Below, piece by piece: positions 10,064 to 18,264 of a stretch of DNA of 64,000 nucleotides. A program made the translations under genes and the position numbers. The notes below the pieces were generated by a model. The model was not told the origin of the DNA. It did no database searches and was given only the letters and a program-made list of their open reading frames with translations. The stretch is from positions 2,728,001 through 2,792,000 of the forward strand of contig NZ_CP018863.1 in NCBI RefSeq assembly GCF_002849715.1. The letters are read 5' to 3'. The stretch is from Arthrobacter crystallopoietes. Its GTDB lineage: Bacteria; Actinomycetota; Actinomycetes; Actinomycetales; Micrococcaceae. How positions within the stretch are numbered: position 1 is the first letter of the stretch; each line of letters starts with the position of its first letter.

Positions 10064-11569
10064 CTAGCGACCCAGCTGCCGGAACTTCGCCCAACGTCGC
10101 GCCACGCGTTCGGCTGCGGGAGTGCTGGCGGCAGCAGACAGTTCATACTCGATCGCCTGGGCCATCCGCCGGCAGAAGTCCTTTGGTTCGACCGCAGCAT
10201 CGGGGCGTTCGTCCACGATATGGTCCACCAATCCATTGCCGTACAGGGAGGTGACATTAACTCCCTGTTGCATGGCGATCGACGGCGCGAACTCGGTGGT
10301 GCGGTGCAGGATGGCGCTGGCGCCTTCGGGCGGCAGGGGCGACAGCCAGGCATGCTGGGCGGCAATGATCCGGTCTGCAGGCAGCAAGGCGAGAGCGCCG
10401 CCACCGGCACCCTGGCCGAGCAGTACGGATACGCTGGGGGACTGCAGGCCGACCAGATCCTGCAGTGACCGCGCGATTTCTCCCGCCAGTCCGCCTTCCT
10501 CTGCTTCCTTGGACAGCGCGGCGCCTGCCGTGTCGATGACGGTCAGCAAGGGCAGGCCGAGTTCTTCCGCCAGTTTCATGCCCCGGCGGGCCTCCCGCAA
10601 TGATCCCGGTCCCATTGCCGGAGTGTCCGGATCCCTGGGTCGTTCGTGACCGAGGACGACGCAAGACTGTCTGCCAAAGCGCGCCAGCGCGAGCTGCAGC
10701 CCGGGATCGTTCTCGCCCTGCCCCGTCCCATTGAGGGGTAGCGCGTCTGCGGCGCCTGCAGCCAACAACCAGCGCAGGTCCGGCCGGCGGGTGTTCCGGG
10801 AGATCTGGATTGAGGCCCAGCCGTCCGCGTCCGCGGGCCTTGTCTGCACGGTTTCCGGTGCAGGTGCAGGCTCGGCGGGCCCGGGCAGCAGGATGTTCAA
10901 CGCCCGGTCCAGAATTTCCGGAAGCTCCTGCGGGGGAGCGACGGCATCGATGAGTCCCTTGTGGAAGAGGTTTTCGGAAACCTGGACACCTTCCGGGAAC
11001 GGTTCGCCGTTCAGCGCCTCGAATACCCGGGGACCGAGGAACCCAAGGAGCGCGCCCGGTTCGGCAACTGTGACATGGCCCAGCGAGCCCCATGAGGCCA
11101 TTACTCCGCCGGTAGTGGGGTGGCGGAGGTAAACCAGATAGGGCAGGCCTTCCTGCCGGTGGCGGTGGACAGCCGCGGTGATCTTGACCATTGCCAGGAA
11201 AGCGAGTGTTCCTTCCTGCATGCGTGTGCCGCCGGAGGCGGGGCCGGCAAGCAGCGGGAGGCGTTCAGCTGTGGCCCGTTCCACTGCGGCGGTAATCCGC
11301 TCCGCCGCAGCTTGTCCGATGGAGCCGGCCAGGAAGGCGAACTCCGAGACGATCACAGCCACCCGCCGTCCGCGGATGAAACCCTCTCCGGTCAGGACGG
11401 ATTCGTCCGTTCCGCTCTTTCGGGCGGCAGCATCCAGGTCACGGCGGTACTTCTCGTCCGCCGCAGGCTGCGCCGGCGGTGTATCCCAGGAATTGAAGGA
11501 GCCTGGATCGAGAACAGTGTCAATGAGCTCGACGGCGTTCAAATGGCGTGTCTTCTGCAAGGTCTCCAT
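10064..11569 (-). CDS. AccD/AccA-type carboxyltransferase fusion, probable malonyl-CoA decarboxylase
   Basis: A 501-residue protein with two crotonase-fold carboxyltransferase halves. The N-half is AccD-like (PASGGTRMQEG, TTGGVMASWGSLGHV) and the C-half AccA-like (GQGAGGGALALLPADRIIA, PPEGASAILHR). The AccD zinc ribbon (paired CxxC) is absent. The ATG at 11569 is preferred over 11626 because it starts one base after the CoA-transferase stop with AGAGG upstream. No biotin carboxylase or biotin carrier gene is visible nearby. Beside a MatC carrier and a type III CoA-transferase, the best reading is decarboxylation of malonyl-CoA, analogous to MdcD/MdcE of the biotin-independent malonate decarboxylase. 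A biotin-dependent acyl-CoA carboxylase subunit served by distant genes remains possible. Confidence 0.75.
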   Translation of the reverse strand: METLQKTRHLNAVELIDTVLDPGSFNSWDTPPAQPAADEKYRRDLDAAARKSGTDESVLTGEGFIRGRRVAVIVSEFAFLAGSIGQAAAERITAAVERATAERLPLLAGPASGGTRMQEGTLAFLAMVKITAAVHRHRQEGLPYLVYLRHPTTGGVMASWGSLGHVTVAEPGALLGFLGPRVFEALNGEPFPEGVQVSENLFHKGLIDAVAPPQELPEILDRALNILLPGPAEPAPAPETVQTRPADADGWASIQISRNTRRPDLRWLLAAGAADALPLNGTGQGENDPGLQLALARFGRQSCVVLGHERPRDPDTPAMGPGSLREARRGMKLAEELGLPLLTVIDTAGAALSKEAEEGGLAGEIARSLQDLVGLQSPSVSVLLGQGAGGGALALLPADRIIAAQHAWLSPLPPEGASAILHRTTEFAPSIAMQQGVNVTSLYGNGLVDHIVDERPDAAVEPKDFCRRMAQAIEYELSAAASTPAAERVARRWAKFRQLGR

Positions 11570-11570
11570 C

Positions 11571-12806
11571 TCAATCTGCCTCTTCTGCGCCGGCAAGCCA
11601 GGCCCGGATAGTTTTACCGTCTGCATCCAGCATCGGTGGGGCCTGATGCGTTCTGCGGGTGGTTTCCTCGGCGCTGGCCGGGTTGAAGAACCGCAGCGGT
11701 GGTCCCGGAAGTGTCACCTTGCCCAGGACCTGATGCTCGACGTCGACGAGCAGGCCTTGGGACTTGACCTGGCCCCAGGCATAGACCTCGTCCAGGCTGC
11801 GCACCTTGCCCGCCGGAATGCCGGCATCGTCCAGTTTCTCCAGCAACGTTTCCGCGCCATAAGTGGCGAAAGCCCGTTCCACCTCCTCGATGACGAGGGC
11901 TCTGTTGTTGACCCGGTCCGCGTTGGTGGCGAACTCCGGGCGCGATCCGTCGATACCGAAGGCCTTGCTGAAAGCGGCCCACAGTTTTTCACTGCCGACA
12001 CTGATCTGCACCTTGCCGCCGCGGCAGCTGAACAATCCGTAGGGCGCGATGGAGGGGTGGTGGTTGCCCTGTGCCTGCGGCACCTGTCCGGCCACCGTGG
12101 CCCGGGTGCCCTGGAAAGCGTGGACGCCAACCATCGCTGCGAGCAAGGAGGTGCGGACCACCTGTCCGCGCCCGGTGCGTTCGCGTTCCATCAATGCGGC
12201 CAGTGCACCGTATGCACCGTACATGCCGGAGAGCAAATCCGCGATCGGTACGCCCACGCGCTGCGGGTCGTCGGGTCCGGAGCCGGTCAGTGACATCAGG
12301 CCCGCTTCGCCTTGCAGGATCTGGTCGTAGCCGCTGCGATGCGATTCGGGCCCGTCGTGCCCGAATCCGGTAATCGAGAGAATCACTAGCCCGGGGTTGA
12401 GCTCATGCAACCGGGCGGCGTCGAAACCCAGCCGGTCGAGTACACCTGGGCGGAAGTTTTCGATCAGCACGTCCGCGCGGCGGATGAGCCCGGTGAGGAC
12501 CTGGTTGCCGTCGTCGCTCTTCAGGTCCAGTGCTATGGATTCCTTGTTCCGATTACAGGACAGAAAGTACGTGGCCTGTGGATTATCCTCCGGGCCGACG
12601 AAGGGCGGGCCCCAGCCGCGCGTGTCATCCCCGTGGCCCGGGTTCTCCACTTTGATGACGCGGGCGCCGAGGTCGGCCATCATCATGCCGGCATGCGGGC
12701 CGGCCAGCGCACGGCTGAGGTCGACTACGGTAAATCCGGTCAGCGGTCCTGCCGCTTCGGTTGTGGCCGGAGATGTTTCGGTGTGGCGGTCGGTTGCAAT
12801 GGTCAT
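11571..12806 (-). CDS. Type III CoA-transferase (CaiB/BaiF family)
   Basis: A 411-residue CoA-transferase. The N-terminus shows the family pattern LTGFTVVDLSRALAGPHAGM with the catalytic-type Asp in ARVIKVENPGHGDDTRGWGP nearby. Later blocks SGYDQILQGEAGLMSLTG and GNHHPSIAPYGLF are also typical. The ATG at 12806 is chosen because AAAGGAG is 5 bases upstream; the earlier ATG at 12833 lacks a ribosome site. Type III enzymes move CoA between carboxylic acids. Here it lies between the MatC carrier and the decarboxylase-like gene, so transfer of CoA onto malonate from a small acyl-CoA (for example acetyl-CoA, which would make the cycle catalytic) is inferred. Other dicarboxylates cannot be excluded. 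Confidence 0.85.
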   Translation of the reverse strand: MTIATDRHTETSPATTEAAGPLTGFTVVDLSRALAGPHAGMMMADLGARVIKVENPGHGDDTRGWGPPFVGPEDNPQATYFLSCNRNKESIALDLKSDDGNQVLTGLIRRADVLIENFRPGVLDRLGFDAARLHELNPGLVILSITGFGHDGPESHRSGYDQILQGEAGLMSLTGSGPDDPQRVGVPIADLLSGMYGAYGALAALMERERTGRGQVVRTSLLAAMVGVHAFQGTRATVAGQVPQAQGNHHPSIAPYGLFSCRGGKVQISVGSEKLWAAFSKAFGIDGSRPEFATNADRVNNRALVIEEVERAFATYGAETLLEKLDDAGIPAGKVRSLDEVYAWGQVKSQGLLVDVEHQVLGKVTLPGPPLRFFNPASAEETTRRTHQAPPMLDADGKTIRAWLAGAEEAD

Positions 12807-12849
12807 ATCCACTCCTTTGGTGTGGGTCAGCAATCGGGGGACCGGCGGG

Positions 12850-14208
12850 TCACAGCCAGCCGGGCAGTACCAGGGTCAACCAGGCCAGGACGGGCCCGGC
12901 CACCACGACGATGCCGCCGTAGCCCAGGATTTGCTTGTAGAAACGCTCTTTGTCGGTGCCTTCCGGTGCGTTCGCCAGCACCAGGGCTCCGTTGGTCGAG
13001 AACGGCGAGACATCCACAATCGTGGAGGCGACTGCCAGGGCGCAGACAACGCCGACGGCGCTGATCTCGCCGGAATCAAGGAACGGGATCGCCAGCGGGA
13101 TCAGTGCGGCCAGAATGGCAGTGGACGAGGCGAAAGCGGAGACGACGGCCCCGATGTAGCAGATCAGCAATGCGGCCAGCAGCGGGACACCCAGGTTGGC
13201 GACGCCATCCGAAACGTAGTCGATCGTGCCGGCCTCTTGCAGGACACCGACGAAGGTCAGCATGCCGCAGATCAGCAGTACGGTTGACCAGCTGATCTTG
13301 TTGACAGCGCCTTTCTGGGCCTTCGGCGACACGAGCGCGAGGACCACGGCGATGGTGATGGAGACGAATCCGACGTCGACTTTGAAGCCCAGGGCAACGA
13401 CGGCGAGTACGATCAGGCCGGTGAAGGTCAGCAGCTGCGGCAGGCGCTCGCCGGACGGCTTGGAGGAGCCGTCACCTGCTGGATCCCGTGGCCCGTAGGT
13501 GCCGCTGCCCGCTCCCTTGAACGTGACGTCGCCGGCCTTGCTGCCCACGCTCACAGACATGCGGGCCTCCGCGACCTGCTCGACGAAGTGCCCCACCCTA
13601 GTCATGGACAGGCTGCGGCCACCGAGCACCAGGAAGAGCACCAAAGCAATCACCAGGTTGAAGGCGAAGCTCGTCAGGAACAGGGCTGTGGGGCTAAAGG
13701 CAAAGCCGGCGTCCGTAATCAGGCCATTGACGATGACCCCGTAGACGGCAATGGGAGAGAAGCCTCCGGCCTGCGCGCCATGGACTACCAGCATGCCCAT
13801 CATGAGTGGGTTGATCTTGTATTTGGCGGCGAAACCGAGTGCGATCGGTGCCATGATCGCAACTGCTGCCGGGCCCAGTGCACCGACCGCGGTGATCGCG
13901 GCCGTGATGATGAACATGACCCACGGGATCAGTGCGATTCTGTTGTCCACCAGCTTCACGGCACGACTGATCAACAAGTCGATGGTGCCGTTGTTCTGTG
14001 CAATGGCGAACAAATAGGTGACGCCTACCAGTGTCAGGAAGAGGCCGCCGGGGAAGTTGGCCAGGATGGCGTCAGTGTCCATCCCCAAAAAAACTGCCCC
14101 GAGCAGAAAGGCGCCGACGAAGGCGAGTGCGCCCATGTTGATGGGCAGGACTGTGGCGATCAGGAACATCGCCGCCAGAACGATGATTGATAAGACAGGA
14201 GCGGACAT
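12850..14208 (-). CDS. matC: MatC-type dicarboxylate (malonate) carrier
   Basis: A 452-residue permease of the ion-transporter superfamily with 11-13 hydrophobic segments. Its N-terminal third resembles the MatC N-terminal domain known from rhizobial malonate transporters: VLPINMGALAFVGAFLLG, then FPGGLFLTLVGVTYLFAIAQ. A hydrophilic loop of about 55 residues splits the two halves, and the second half contains VDVSPFSTNGALVLANAP, a likely substrate-binding hairpin. The ATG at 14208 is used because GGAGG sits 7 bases upstream; 14247 is less likely. It heads a minus-strand operon with the CoA-transferase and carboxyltransferase genes (43-base and 1-base gaps) and is divergent from a GntR regulator. 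Malonate as substrate is inferred from family and context. Confidence 0.8.
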   Translation of the reverse strand: MSAPVLSIIVLAAMFLIATVLPINMGALAFVGAFLLGAVFLGMDTDAILANFPGGLFLTLVGVTYLFAIAQNNGTIDLLISRAVKLVDNRIALIPWVMFIITAAITAVGALGPAAVAIMAPIALGFAAKYKINPLMMGMLVVHGAQAGGFSPIAVYGVIVNGLITDAGFAFSPTALFLTSFAFNLVIALVLFLVLGGRSLSMTRVGHFVEQVAEARMSVSVGSKAGDVTFKGAGSGTYGPRDPAGDGSSKPSGERLPQLLTFTGLIVLAVVALGFKVDVGFVSITIAVVLALVSPKAQKGAVNKISWSTVLLICGMLTFVGVLQEAGTIDYVSDGVANLGVPLLAALLICYIGAVVSAFASSTAILAALIPLAIPFLDSGEISAVGVVCALAVASTIVDVSPFSTNGALVLANAPEGTDKERFYKQILGYGGIVVVAGPVLAWLTLVLPGWL

Positions 14209-14332
14209 CGGCGTTCCTCCAGAAGATTTTGTAGTGAAATAACTCACTGGCTCACTGGCCTAGCCTCCTAGACACTGAGTCTCTTGTCAATAGGTGTACT
14301 GTGGAGGCAATTCCGATGTGGGGAGGAACGCT

Positions 14333-15031
14333 ATGTCTGAAAAGCCTGTTTCACTGTTGGGCCGGGTAGCTCGGCCAAGGCTCTATGAGCAGTTGATGAA
14401 GCAAATCCTGAGTTACGTTGAGTCCGAGCAGTTGGGGCCGGGTGATCACCTTCCGGCCGAGCGTGACTTGGCGGAACAGCTTGGCGTTTCGCGTGCCACG
14501 CTGGCGCAGGCGCTCGTGGCTCTGGAGGTGCTCGGCGTAATCAGCGTCCAGCACGGCACGGGCGCGGTCCTGGTCTACCGGCCCAGCATTGCCACTGTGC
14601 TTCGGGACTTGCGTGAGCATCAGAACAGGTTGCCCGAGATCGTTGAAGCGCGCAGCACCCTGGAGGTGAAGCTGGCCGCTTTGGCAGCAACGAGACGGAC
14701 AGACGAGGATCTGGCCGGCATTGAGAAAGCCTTGAGCGTCATGGAAGACGAAGTCGGCAAGGGGGACCGGGGCGCCCACGGAGACGAACTTTTCCATCAG
14801 GCAGTAACGGAGGCCGCGCACTCGCCGGTGCTCGCGCAGCTCATGACGTTTATCGCCGAAATGGTTCTCGAAACGCGCCTTGAATCATTAGGACAGCCAG
14901 GCCGCCCGGAGCAGTCTCTAGCGTCCCACCGCAAGATTGCCGATGCCATCAAGGCCCAGGACCCGGACCTGGCCGCCGCAGCCATGCAGGCCCACATCGA
15001 ACTGGTCTCGGACGTGGCGCTGCTCAAGTAA
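14333..15031 (+). CDS. GntR family (FadR subfamily) regulator of the malonate cluster
   Basis: A 232-residue regulator. The N-terminal winged helix reads LYEQLMKQILSYVESEQLGP, then LPAERDLAEQLGVSRATLAQ and VISVQHGTGAVLV. The C-terminal all-helical FCD domain keeps the metal-binding histidine pattern (GDELFHQAV, SHRKIADAI, MQAHIELV). GGGGAGG lies 6 bases before ATG 14333, which is therefore preferred to the upstream ATG at 14294. It is divergent from matC with a 124-base shared region and is the likely repressor of that operon, by analogy with rhizobial MatR. The shared region contains direct repeats of CTCACTGG and a GAC-ACTGA-GTC inverted repeat that are operator candidates. Confidence 0.87.
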   Translation: MSEKPVSLLGRVARPRLYEQLMKQILSYVESEQLGPGDHLPAERDLAEQLGVSRATLAQALVALEVLGVISVQHGTGAVLVYRPSIATVLRDLREHQNRLPEIVEARSTLEVKLAALAATRRTDEDLAGIEKALSVMEDEVGKGDRGAHGDELFHQAVTEAAHSPVLAQLMTFIAEMVLETRLESLGQPGRPEQSLASHRKIADAIKAQDPDLAAAAMQAHIELVSDVALLK

Positions 15032-15048: not shown

Positions 15049-15957
15049 TTAGTGCAGGTCGAGCACAGGCGGTTCGAAGATCCACGGCTCGGTGGGCAGT
15101 TGACCGGGTGAGAACGCCTCGAGTACCTGCTCCAGCGGCCCGGCCGGGAGGCCGACCGAGCGCAGGACCATGTCCCGCACCGTGCCGGGACCAATCCCGG
15201 CCAGCGCGAGGGTGCGCAGGGAAATGGCGCCGTCGCGCTTGGCGATCCGGCGGTGATGGGTATTCAACACCAGCGGCACATGGACATATTCGACCGGCGC
15301 CAGGCCGAGCAGGGACGCCAGATAGGCCTGCCGGGGCGTGGAACTGAGCAGGTCATCGCCGCGGACCACCTGGTCGATGCCCTGCTCCGCATCGTCGACG
15401 ACGACGGCGAGGTTGTAGGCCGGCACGCCATCGTTGCGCAGCAGCACCAGGTCGTCGACGACGCCGGTGTACTCGCCGTGCAGCCGGTCGGTCACGGTGT
15501 ATTCGGTGACCCCGGCGCGCAGCCGGAGCGCAGCGGGACGCTCCTGCCGCCGTCGTTCGCGTTCTGCATCGCTGAGGTTGCGGCAGGTTCCGGGGTAGGC
15601 GCCGGCCGGGGCGTGCGGAGCGCTGGGGGCTTCGGCGATCTCCCTGCGGGTACAGAAGCATTCGTAGACCCGACCCGCGTCGGCCAGGGCGGTGATGGCC
15701 GCGCGGTAGAGGGGGAAGCGGTCCGTCTGGCTGAGCACGTTGCCATCCCATGTAAGCCCGACGGCGGCCAGATCCTCGAGTACTTTGTCTTCCGCTCCGG
15801 CGCGGGCTCGGTCCAGATCCTCGATCCGCAGCAGGAAATCGCGGCCGGTGCTGCGGGCGAAGAGCCAGGCAAGGATGGCGGTGCGCAGGTTTCCTACATG
15901 CAGTTCGCCCGAGGGGCTGGGGGCGAAGCGGCCGGCTCCGGCGTCGATAGGAGGCAC
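15049..15957 (-). CDS. gluQ: Glutamyl-Q tRNA(Asp) synthetase
   Basis: A 302-residue truncated glutamyl-tRNA synthetase without an anticodon-binding domain. It has the HIGH-like SPSGELHVGN (class I), the KMSKS-like IAKRDGA, and zinc-site cysteines in YECFCTRRE and YPGTCRNLS. GluQ activates glutamate and attaches it to queuosine at the wobble base of tRNA-Asp. Its start lies 9 bases after the stop of the flavin monooxygenase gene, so it may be read from the same riboswitch-controlled transcript. A functional link between thiamine-responsive genes and tRNA modification is not obvious, and simple co-location is possible. Confidence 0.93.
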   Translation of the reverse strand: MPPIDAGAGRFAPSPSGELHVGNLRTAILAWLFARSTGRDFLLRIEDLDRARAGAEDKVLEDLAAVGLTWDGNVLSQTDRFPLYRAAITALADAGRVYECFCTRREIAEAPSAPHAPAGAYPGTCRNLSDAERERRRQERPAALRLRAGVTEYTVTDRLHGEYTGVVDDLVLLRNDGVPAYNLAVVVDDAEQGIDQVVRGDDLLSSTPRQAYLASLLGLAPVEYVHVPLVLNTHHRRIAKRDGAISLRTLALAGIGPGTVRDMVLRSVGLPAGPLEQVLEAFSPGQLPTEPWIFEPPVLDLH

Positions 15958-15966
15958 GGGTCCAGT

Positions 15967-17283
15967 CTATAAAGCGAAGTCGCCGACGGCCGGGCGGTCC
16001 AGTCCCAGATGCTCGCGCAGCGTGCTGCCGGTGTAGGAGGTGCGGAACAGCCCCCTGCGCTGCAGCACCGGAATGACGCGGTCCACAAACTCGTTCAGGG
16101 AATCCGGCAGCAGCGGCGGCATCAGGTTGAATCCGTCCGCGCCGCCGGAGGTGAACCAAAGCTCGATCTGGTCCGCCACCTGTTCGGGCGTGCCGGTCAT
16201 GGTGCAGTGTCCGCCGCCGGCCGCCAGCCTTCCGAGCAACTGGCGCACCGTAGGCTTTTCGGCGTCGATAATGCGCAGGATGGTGGTGTAGCGGCCCTGC
16301 GGGCCGGTGAATTCCGACGCCGGCGGGAGGCTTGGCACGGGCGCGTCCAGCTCCCAGCCGCTGCAGTCCTGCTGGATGAAGGTGCCCAGCTGGGCCAGAG
16401 AGTGTTCCGTGGGCAGCAGCGCATCGGTTTCGGCCTGCTTGGCCTTGGCTTCCGCCGTCGTTGTCCCGAGGTAAGTCACCAGGCCAGGCATGACGGCAAC
16501 CTTGTCCGGGTTCCGCCCGGCTGCGGCGATGCGGCGCTTCACATCCGCGTAGTAGGCCTGCGCGCTGGCCAGATCGTAGGCGACGGCGTAGATGCCTTCG
16601 GCATAGCGGGCGGCGAGGTCGCGTCCCTGCTCCGAGGCACCGGCTTGGAACAGCACCGGCCGGCCCTGCGGGGAGCGCGGGACGGTTAGCGGGCCGTCCA
16701 CCAGAAAGTGCTGTCCTGAATGGTGGAGCGGCGCAACTTCGGCCGGATCCGCGTAGTAGCCCTGCCGGTCGAGGACGAGCGCGTCGTCGGTCCAGGAATC
16801 CCACAGCCGCTGGGCGACGTCGATGAATTCGGCGGCGCGGTCGTAGCGTTCCTGATGTCCGGGAATGGCCGCCATGCCGTGGTTGCGTGCCTCGGCGTCG
16901 AACATCGATGTGACGACGTTCCAACCGATGCGCCCGGCGCTGATGTGGTCCAGCGAGGCCAGCATGCGGGCGGCGTGGAAGGGCGTGTAGAAGGTGGCCG
17001 ACACGGTACTGACCAGGCCGATCCTGCTGGTGGCCCGGGCCATGGCTGACAGCGCGGTGAGGGGTTCCAGATGCCAGAGCGGCCCCGCGCCCAGGTTGCC
17101 GGTTGAGTGCCCGTCGGCGAAGAAAACAGCATCGAACAGGCCTCGCTCCGCGGTTTGGGCCAGCCGCTCGTAGAATGCGATGTCGCCGAGCTGTTCAATG
17201 GGCGATTGCGGCCGGCGCCAGGCGGCGCTGTGGTGGCCGCAGCCGAACAGGAACGCGTTGAAGTGCAGTTGCCGCGCCGCCAT
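15967..17283 (-). CDS. NtaA/SnaA-type flavin-dependent monooxygenase (luciferase-like)
   Basis: A 438-residue FMN-dependent oxygenase of the bacterial luciferase superfamily, with the typical length of the NtaA/SnaA/DszA/DmoA branch. Readable features are LWHLEPLTALSAMARATSRI, GRIGWNVVTS, the NHGMAAIPGHQERYDRAAEF block and GRPVLFQAGASEQGRDLAA. It needs reduced FMN from a separate reductase, which is not encoded next to it. The ATG overlaps the stop of the preceding SDR gene as TAATG, indicating translational coupling. The operon starts with a TPP riboswitch, so the substrate is probably related to thiamine or a pyrimidine/thiazole moiety. RutA, a pyrimidine oxygenase, is a relative by fold, which makes ring cleavage of a pyrimidine thinkable, but no substrate is known. 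Confidence 0.85.
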   Translation of the reverse strand: MAARQLHFNAFLFGCGHHSAAWRRPQSPIEQLGDIAFYERLAQTAERGLFDAVFFADGHSTGNLGAGPLWHLEPLTALSAMARATSRIGLVSTVSATFYTPFHAARMLASLDHISAGRIGWNVVTSMFDAEARNHGMAAIPGHQERYDRAAEFIDVAQRLWDSWTDDALVLDRQGYYADPAEVAPLHHSGQHFLVDGPLTVPRSPQGRPVLFQAGASEQGRDLAARYAEGIYAVAYDLASAQAYYADVKRRIAAAGRNPDKVAVMPGLVTYLGTTTAEAKAKQAETDALLPTEHSLAQLGTFIQQDCSGWELDAPVPSLPPASEFTGPQGRYTTILRIIDAEKPTVRQLLGRLAAGGGHCTMTGTPEQVADQIELWFTSGGADGFNLMPPLLPDSLNEFVDRVIPVLQRRGLFRTSYTGSTLREHLGLDRPAVGDFAL

Positions 17284-18047
17284 TAGTTCATCACCAGTCC
17301 GCCGTCGACCATCAGGTTCTGCCCGGTCACCGAGCGGGCCCAGGGCGACGCGAAGAACAGTACCGCGTCGGCCAGTTCTTCCGGCGTCGTTACTTTGCGC
17401 AGCGGGGTGGAGGCGGCGATCAGGTCGAAGACCTCATCTGGTGTGGCAGCGCTGGCGTCGGTGGTGCGGAGCAGCCCGCCGGAGACCATGTTGACGGTGA
17501 CGTTGTGCTGGCCCAGGTCCGCCGCCAGCGTCCGGGTCAGCGAGAGCAGGGCCGCCTTGGCGGCCGTGTAGTCGTGGTACGGCACCACCGGATTCTGGAA
17601 GAGGTTGGTGCCGATGTTGATGATCCGGCCGAACCGGTGGCCGCGCATGCCGGGAAGTGCCTGCTGAGCGGTGTTCAGCGCGCCGCGCACGCTGCCGGAA
17701 AACTGGGTTTCGAACTCGGACCACGAGATATCGGCGGCGTTGGAGCGGGCATCCCCGTTGAAGGAGAAATCCGCCAGCGCGTTATTGACCACCGTGGTTA
17801 CTGCGCCGCCGAAATGGGCTTCGGCACGGCTGAACAGCTCCGCCACCTGCCCGGCATCGGTGACGTCCGCACGAAGAGCCAGGGCCTGTTCCGGCCCGAA
17901 CTTGGCGGCCAGCTCCTCGGCTGCCGAGCCGCTGTTGCGGTAATTGATGACTACCCGGGCGCCGGCTTCCGCGAAGGCTGCGACGATCCGAGCGCCGAGG
18001 CCACGGCCGCCGCCGGTTACCAGTACGGTCTGTTCTGCGAGCTGCAT
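17283..18047 (-). CDS. Short-chain dehydrogenase/reductase, FabG-like
   Basis: A 254-residue classical SDR. The cofactor motif is TGGGRGLG, the NNA motif is VVNNALADF, and the catalytic YxxxK appears as YHDYTAAKAA. The usual catalytic Ser, 13 residues before the Tyr, is Thr here (NIGTN). The start at 18047 has GGTGGAG 7 bases upstream; the in-frame ATG at 18098 would place coding sequence next to the riboswitch. It is the first gene after a TPP riboswitch and is translationally coupled to the flavin monooxygenase. A reductase acting on the same thiamine-related compound is the natural guess, but generic SDR sequence gives no substrate. Confidence 0.88.
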   Translation of the reverse strand: MQLAEQTVLVTGGGRGLGARIVAAFAEAGARVVINYRNSGSAAEELAAKFGPEQALALRADVTDAGQVAELFSRAEAHFGGAVTTVVNNALADFSFNGDARSNAADISWSEFETQFSGSVRGALNTAQQALPGMRGHRFGRIINIGTNLFQNPVVPYHDYTAAKAALLSLTRTLAADLGQHNVTVNMVSGGLLRTTDASAATPDEVFDLIAASTPLRKVTTPEELADAVLFFASPWARSVTGQNLMVDGGLVMN

Positions 18048-18107
18048 AGAGGTTCTCCACCTTGAATAAGGCGAAAAGATGGGTGCAGCGCACCGCACGG
18101 CAGCCGC

Positions 18108-18191
18108 TGCATGACATCCCTTCGCTAGTACGAACTAGATCAGGTTCAACGGGTTTACTCTCAGCCCCGAAAGGGGCACCCCGTGTCACTG
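18108..18191 (-). promoter_or_regulatory. TPP (THI-element) riboswitch
   Basis: Reading the minus strand, the conserved THI-box runs in order: GGGGTGCCC, a short CCTTTCGG-type P3 loop, GGCTGAGA, AACCCGTTGAACCTGATCT, AGTTCGTACTAGCGAAGGGA. The P1 helix closes with TGACA pairing to TGTCA at the other end (18112-18116). A TAGACT -10-like element at 18198-18203 would start transcription at the first base of the aptamer. Downstream, GCAGCG and CGCTGC can pair 40-65 bases before the SDR ATG, a possible expression platform. The aptamer call is firm; the switching mechanism is inferred. Confidence 0.95.
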
Positions 18192-18264
18192 CGTGCGAGT
18201 CTACCTGCGCGAGCGGGTTACTGCAGCAACGCCACCTCCAATCGGTCTATGAAGCTCGACGTCG

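Follow-up and report, generated by a model that had tools for sequence, protein, structure and literature searches.

What does a thiamine pyrophosphate (TPP) riboswitch control when the two genes directly behind it encode a short-chain dehydrogenase/reductase (SDR) and a luciferase-like monooxygenase dependent on flavin mononucleotide (FMN), here called LLM? The question is raised by a stretch of 64,000 nucleotides from the 5.0-Mb assembly of Arthrobacter crystallopoietes (contig NZ_CP018863.1, positions 2,728,001 to 2,792,000), which we refer to throughout as the window. Here we report that the arrangement recurs in Actinomycetota and in Beta- and Gammaproteobacteria, and we suggest that the two genes form a salvage module that is shut off by abundant TPP; as a whole explanation we give this reading a probability of about 0.5. 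A role of some kind in recovering thiamine moieties is probable by comparison of loci, because TPP control is found in many lineages, the pair is linked to salvage genes or to a symporter, and all carriers tested have ThiE.

The riboswitch itself is well defined. A TPP aptamer (THI element) lies on the minus strand at 18100..18193 and matches RF00059 over the full model (18193-18100) with 75.1 bits and an E-value of 5.7e-13, the sole Rfam match at gathering score within the window. An earlier reading of the letters without database searches (the sequence-only reading) had placed this element at 18108-18191 on the same strand, which was essentially right, and covariance-model scoring, which could have rejected it, put the match well above the gathering score of 54.3. 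Behind it on the minus strand stand the SDR (17283..18047, 254 aa; family NF006393/PRK08642, 438.7 bits, cut-off 292) and the LLM, an NtaA/DmoA-family FMN-dependent monooxygenase (15967..17283, 438 aa; TIGR03860, 539.4 bits, cut-off 279.7). The SDR stop codon (TAA, 17285-17283) and the LLM start codon (ATG, 17283-17281) share one base in the sequence TAATG, an overlap that had been recognized from the letters and is confirmed. For the SDR start we prefer the ATG at 18047 over the upstream GTG at 18098 given in the open reading frame (ORF) list, because similarity to relatives begins at about this point and because AAGGTGGAGA, at 18054..18063 on the minus strand, is a plausible Shine-Dalgarno (SD) site.

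A genome-wide search found five TPP riboswitches. The other four, assigned from ORFs read by eye together with family matches, precede a thiD-tenA fusion, thiC, a thiO-like gene adjoining thiG, and ykoE-D-C, so that the SDR-LLM pair adds a fifth unit to an ordinary thiamine regulon. ThiC, ThiG, ThiE and TenA all have matches in this genome, every one outside the window, and a family search of the genome gave no match for ThiM. The statement of the sequence-only reading that known thiamine genes are absent therefore holds for the window, as far as the ThiC, ThiG, ThiE, TenA and ThiM families go, but not for the genome, which has thiC, thiD-tenA, thiG, thiE and ykoEDC.

A search of other genomes for the same order of elements, with a table of neighbours, had also been proposed from the letters, and the arrangement does recur. 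With the LLM as query, 35 of 148 related genomes (the window's own included) gave a match at 1e-120. Among the 30 best relative loci, a TPP riboswitch scoring over Rfam's gathering threshold was present at 24 of the 25 full-length loci with LLM identity of at least 60% and at none of the four with identity of 52% or less; the exception among the 25 (L030, the same gene as L056 below) has a weak TPP match, and the remaining locus is partial, with its riboswitch further up, before thiM. We then drew on named genomes, taking the best 80 loci of a larger number (LLM identity at least 68%) and calling riboswitches with a self-built covariance model rather than Rfam, seeded with 22 TPP riboswitches (20 from the relatives' LLM loci and two more of the window's genome). 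A riboswitch precedes the LLM or its operon at 66 of the 80, 64 of these with an SDR, and the order TPP-SDR-LLM is found at 63, counting two Kocuria loci that carried the script label TPP-LLM, since the SDR is there with a gap of 149 bases before the LLM. One further locus (L063) has thiM-thiE between the riboswitch and the pair, and two Dietzia loci have TPP-LLM with no SDR. At the 61 loci measured, 27-120 bases separate the riboswitch from the SDR. Distances between SDRs and between LLMs run in parallel (Mantel r 0.85, with 0 of 2000 permutations as high) across 72 loci, themselves chosen by similarity, in which mean pairwise identity of the pair is ~73%.

The neighbours of the pair, inspected at 108 loci (L040-L147), are consistent with a place in thiamine salvage. 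At 42 of 44 proteobacterial loci a sodium:solute symporter gene (PF00474 in the representative L095) lies on the opposite strand, and each of these 42 genes has on its own strand a TPP match that overlaps its 5' end or lies within 109 bases of it. PMC11452348 presents ThiV of SAR11, a sodium:solute symporter (SSS) family protein under a TPP riboswitch, as the likely transporter of hydroxymethylpyrimidine (HMP); ThiV and the proteobacterial neighbour are both sodium:solute symporters behind TPP riboswitches, a likeness at the level of the superfamily. At 13 Achromobacter loci (L072, L074, L075, L078, L079, L082, L084, L085, L094, L096, L102, L107 and L138) the symporter adjoins either the pair (7) or a lone LLM (6), and the TPP match there belongs to the symporter alone.

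Salvage-type neighbours were seen at six of the 108 loci, all six actinobacterial. The orders are TPP-thiM-thiE-SDR-LLM in L063; TPP-SDR-thiM-thiE-thiD in L058, with the LLM behind a second riboswitch; TPP-SDR-LLM followed by TPP-thiD-MFS-thiM-thiE in L044, MFS being a major facilitator superfamily transporter; TPP-thiM-thiE-thiD-SDR-LLM in L141, a draft contig on which the LLM is split in two frames; and TPP-SDR divergent from TPP-thiM-thiE-thiD in L143, with no LLM in the stretch. In L064 an NMT1/THI5-like binding protein is encoded nearby, behind a TPP match. Judged by gene order, TPP control and salvage genes are combined in one operon in L058, L063 and L141 (with its split LLM), and the window itself has TPP control only; at most actinobacterial loci among the 108, the window's included, no salvage gene was seen beside the pair. 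The transporter inside the TPP-controlled thiD-thiM-thiE operon of L044 (L044:9453-10823) is a possible precursor importer. The draft genome G043 carries the salvage cluster twice, once on each of two contigs (L141 and L142), with the LLM or the SDR incomplete in each. The pair shares the regulon of the known salvage proteins ThiM, ThiD, ThiE, TenA and ThiXYZ, and in some relatives shares an operon with them; to our knowledge no thiamine salvage step on this short list of enzymes uses an FMN monooxygenase.

Co-occurrence with thiamine genes was counted in 77 carrier genomes, made up of 50 named LLM carriers and 27 SDR-positive relatives, two groups that may overlap in species. The 50 were hand-picked from the 80 loci; 45 have the SDR adjoining the LLM, five do not (four Achromobacter, one Dietzia), and five Achromobacter lack a riboswitch match on the LLM strand. 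The relatives numbered 31 at first, and counts were redone after G094, G112, G128 and G143 had been dropped for having an SDR in a differing context with no TPP match in the fetched stretch; 25 of the remaining 27 have an LLM match, G042 having a shortened LLM frame and G085 none at that cut-off. ThiE is present in all 77 carriers, ThiG in 72 and ThiC in 38, leaving 39 with no ThiC match. In the named carriers the counts are ThiE 50, ThiG 49 and ThiC 31, and in the SDR-positive relatives ThiE 27, ThiG 23, ThiG or ThiM 27 and ThiC 7, compared with ThiE 85, ThiG 50, ThiG or ThiM 83 and ThiC 36 in the 121 relatives without the SDR. Within the family alone, ThiE is found in 27/27 genomes with the SDR and 54/63 without it (p 0.053). 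Across these genomes the module is accompanied by ThiE and by a source of thiazole, whereas with respect to ThiC it is indifferent. With thiazole provision almost constant and ThiC variable, co-occurrence leans weakly to the pyrimidine side.

The proteins themselves indicate what kind of chemistry may be involved. In the SDR, Thr147, Tyr160 and Lys164 are invariant in 17 of 17 aligned sequences, the window's included; we take Thr147 to stand at the usual position of the catalytic serine. No acidic residue stands at the end of the second strand (NYRNS in the window), which on general knowledge of SDRs suggests that the enzyme uses NADPH and would hence work as a reductase. NCBIfam names the family NF006393 a 3-oxoacyl-ACP reductase, and the protein scores below the FabG equivalog TIGR01830 (137 bits, cut-off 297.75). 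In four further relatives (L144, L145, L146 and L147) the fetched stretch holds an NF006393 SDR but no TPP match; three of these SDRs are 267-aa proteins near genes that by eye resemble 3-oxoacyl-ACP synthases, and NF006393 is therefore not exclusively a thiamine family.

The AlphaFold model of the LLM (mean pLDDT 89.6) has a luciferase-like fold, and a fold search matched it to BdsA, CmoJ, NtaA, EmoA and RcaE, the best being BdsA, CmoJ/YtnJ and NtaA, with TMq of 0.79-0.88 to their chains. By sequence the nearest solved relative is CmoJ/YtnJ of Bacillus subtilis (1yw1, 1tvl, 6ask; 337 bits, third in fold rank), which has a role in sulfur salvage. BdsA and NtaA (5xkc, 3sdo) share fold and family with the LLM at 39-40% identity over the fold match, and we know of no TPP control for either. 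At eleven positions all 27 clade members aligned agree with one another and, gaps counted, none of the seven comparison sequences (CmoJ, NtaA (3sdo), BdsA and four relatives without a riboswitch) agrees with them, as would be expected of one conserved substrate; M127, Y232, D237, F325, P328, G330 and T334 are among these clade-specific residues. A role in degradation of nitrilotriacetate (NTA) was rejected, as nothing observed in the gene context speaks for it. RcaE riboflavin lyase (5w4y) has the LLM's fold at 31% identity over the fold match and is a catabolic enzyme acting on riboflavin; as its description in PMC12746152 has it, ribose is removed oxidatively. By analogy, RcaE offers a chemical precedent in this fold for oxidative removal of a vitamin's sugar chain.

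Taken together with the gene context, these likenesses allow a route to be proposed. RcaE, NtaA and CmoJ cleave bonds of their own substrates leaving an aldehyde. With FMNH2 and O2, the LLM would likewise cleave a C-N (or C-S) bond of an imported thiamine-related compound to give an aldehyde, which the SDR may then reduce to an alcohol with NADPH. The most likely product would be HMP, formed from 4-amino-2-methylpyrimidine-5-carboxaldehyde, and the aldehyde might stem from thiamine, from damaged thiamine or from its aminomethylpyrimidine part; ThiD and ThiE would then rebuild thiamine phosphate. This specific pyrimidine-aldehyde chemistry, drawn from analogy with the family, is tentative and less likely than not; entry of the product into ThiE-dependent synthesis would accord with the co-occurrence of ThiE in every carrier tested. 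In L056 a 343-aa zinc alcohol dehydrogenase (PF08240, PF00107; L056:7811-8842) occupies the SDR's place, in a frame overlapping that of the LLM and directly behind a TPP match of 33.5 bits, below gathering. If this case is real, an alcohol dehydrogenase could replace the SDR, which would favour an aldehyde/alcohol step. Genes for medium-chain dehydrogenases/reductases (MDR) near the LLM, present at seven of 103 LLM loci, were considered as substitutes, and only that of L056 was retained, the others giving no comparable picture; the one from Dietzia that was tested had the score of a quinone oxidoreductase, and its position is upstream of the riboswitch.

The leader is consistent with the module being off when TPP is plentiful. 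Downstream of the aptamer, the strand ATCTTTTCGCCTT (18068..18080, minus strand) is predicted to pair in either of two ways. Its bases 18077-18068 can form a 10-bp hairpin with the SD site, which is how the region folds downstream of the aptamer, and its bases 18080-18071 are fully complementary over 10 bp, G-U pairs allowed, to the aptamer's 3' strand GCGAAGGGAT (18116..18125, minus strand), the proposed partner of the anti-sequestor, in a duplex with a computed energy of -11.2 kcal/mol. In silico, TPP binding would thus leave the downstream strand to hide the ribosome site of the SDR, and without TPP the same strand would pair instead with the 3' side of the aptamer. A YYTTCGC motif forming the core of the switching strand occurs in 36 of 64 leaders, compared with a mean of 1.5 and a maximum of 6 in 500 mononucleotide shuffles that ignore the relatedness of the leaders. 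Pairing of the SD site is 0.80 against 0.69 in shuffles, and lies above the shuffle mean in 43 of the 56 leaders scored (of 61). On these models, control of SDR translation by the leader is likely.

Several observations weigh against the salvage module as proposed. The substrate of both enzymes is something that we only infer, and the presence of thiM next to the pair would suit a thiazole substrate just as well. In the computed leader, the forced alternative RNA state leaves the SD site partly paired, and 28 of the 64 leaders lack the YYTTCGC motif. The replacement in L056 was seen once, behind a riboswitch that scores below threshold. Among the 80 named loci, a riboswitch match on the strand of the pair is absent from the 13 of Achromobacter, in six of which the LLM also lacks an adjacent SDR, and from one short Kocuria contig. 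ThiC and the pair can occur in one genome, and permuting ThiC within genera, for the earlier set of 31 relatives, gave no significant result (p 0.27). Finally, in an even sample of 396 genomes across the phylum, 12 had a match at 1e-150 and 14 loci were fetched, and with four candidates scored per genome only the window's own genome gave a riboswitch-bearing match. The module is therefore patchy in distribution and its clade rare in an even sample, a pattern that horizontal spread would fit.

The thiazole half of the vitamin is the most direct competitor for the substrate. The LLM and SDR could convert an oxidation product of the thiazole side chain or ring to hydroxyethylthiazole for phosphorylation by ThiM, and it would suit this that L044, L058, L063 and L141 have thiM together with the SDR or the pair and that in L143 thiM is close to the SDR, that all four SDR-positive relatives without ThiG have ThiM, and that the nearest solved relatives of the LLM include BdsA, CmoJ and DmoA, enzymes of C-S chemistry. 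We nevertheless regard it as unlikely, given that ThiG is found in 49 of the 50 named carriers and in 23 of the 27 related ones, which thus usually make thiazole anyway, that ThiM is not enriched (12/27 relatives with the SDR, 51/121 without), and that the neighbouring symporter belongs, at superfamily level, with the likely HMP transporter. An origin of HMP that depends on O2 and stands in for ThiC, the radical-SAM enzyme, is highly improbable in either of its variants, with the pyrimidine recycled through the 5-carboxaldehyde or built from a common metabolite. It would account for the 39 of 77 carriers that have no ThiC match, when ThiG is present in 72/77 and ThiE in 77/77, and for the lower frequency of ThiC among ThiE+ThiG+ relatives with the SDR (7/23) than without it (29/49; p 0.042, kinship uncorrected); if true, HMP auxotrophy has been wrongly assigned to many soil and marine bacteria that lack ThiC. 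ThiC and the pair nonetheless stand together in 38 of 77 carriers, which with the within-genus result led us to reject a clean swap of one for the other, and ThiC-less genomes may simply import HMP.

The pair might instead serve something other than recovery. Oxidative cleavage would destroy toxic or damaged thiamine analogues, which importers may also take up, so that clearance with no moiety recovered is conceivable; linkage to ThiD, ThiM and ThiE points rather to reuse of the product, and TPP control would shut the pair off when thiamine is plentiful, which makes clearance quite unlikely. Replacement of a TPP-dependent enzyme when TPP is short would be suited by derepression at low TPP and by the NCBIfam name of the SDR family, but what stands beside the pair in relatives is thiamine salvage genes and the symporter, and with ThiE in 77 of 77 carriers tested we consider such a bypass very unlikely. 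Salvage of a thiamine moiety is thus the reading that we prefer. The sequence-only reading had proposed an uncharacterized oxidative step in thiamine salvage, and it gains from the recurrent TPP control, the salvage neighbours and the constancy of ThiE; the metabolic role itself is one that we infer.

Part of this arrangement has been published before. The ntaA gene presumably adjoins cg0825, an SDR gene of Corynebacterium glutamicum, where NF006393 also has a match in the control genome, and Corynebacterium phocae (L126) has TPP-SDR-LLM. As in the window, a TPP riboswitch precedes cg0825, its leader having been observed by RNA-seq (PMC3890552, PMC4046766), and a riboswitch before this SDR is therefore already on record for C. 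glutamicum. Where these papers treat the gene they give it no function, PMC3890552 going no further than speculation on thiamine-dependent processes. The main text of PMC3766115, a survey of TPP regulons, does not contain the words monooxygenase, oxidoreductase or dehydrogenase. No paper describing the SDR-LLM pair was found among those judged by title and the start of the abstract, and it may have been named earlier. Rodionov and others are said to have named such TPP-regulated genes (oarX) in their 2002 account of the thiamine regulon.

Two further features of the window lie beyond the pair. The gene gluQ (GluQRS, by family match; 15049..15957, minus strand) begins at 15957, 9 bases past the LLM, a spacing that the letters had given correctly, but membership of the operon is improbable: gluQ adjoins the pair at only three of 100 loci scanned, all close relatives, and we therefore judge it to lie outside the module, probably as a chance neighbour, and rejected it as an operon member. 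Beyond it, at 10064-15031, a gene for a GntR/FCD regulator diverges from those for a MatC-like dicarboxylate carrier and a class III CoA-transferase and from a carboxyltransferase gene, which looks like an uptake and activation cluster for malonate or a similar dicarboxylate. No FMN reductase was recognized among the window genes scanned, no search having been aimed at reductases.

A conserved TPP-switched pair across Actinomycetota and Proteobacteria points to one missing reaction with one conserved substrate. The identity of this reaction would reveal the degraded or modified vitamin B1 that these bacteria can recover, would correct predictions of auxotrophy for genomes that lack ThiC, and would assign a function to proteins now carrying the names NtaA-like monooxygenase and 3-oxoacyl-ACP reductase.

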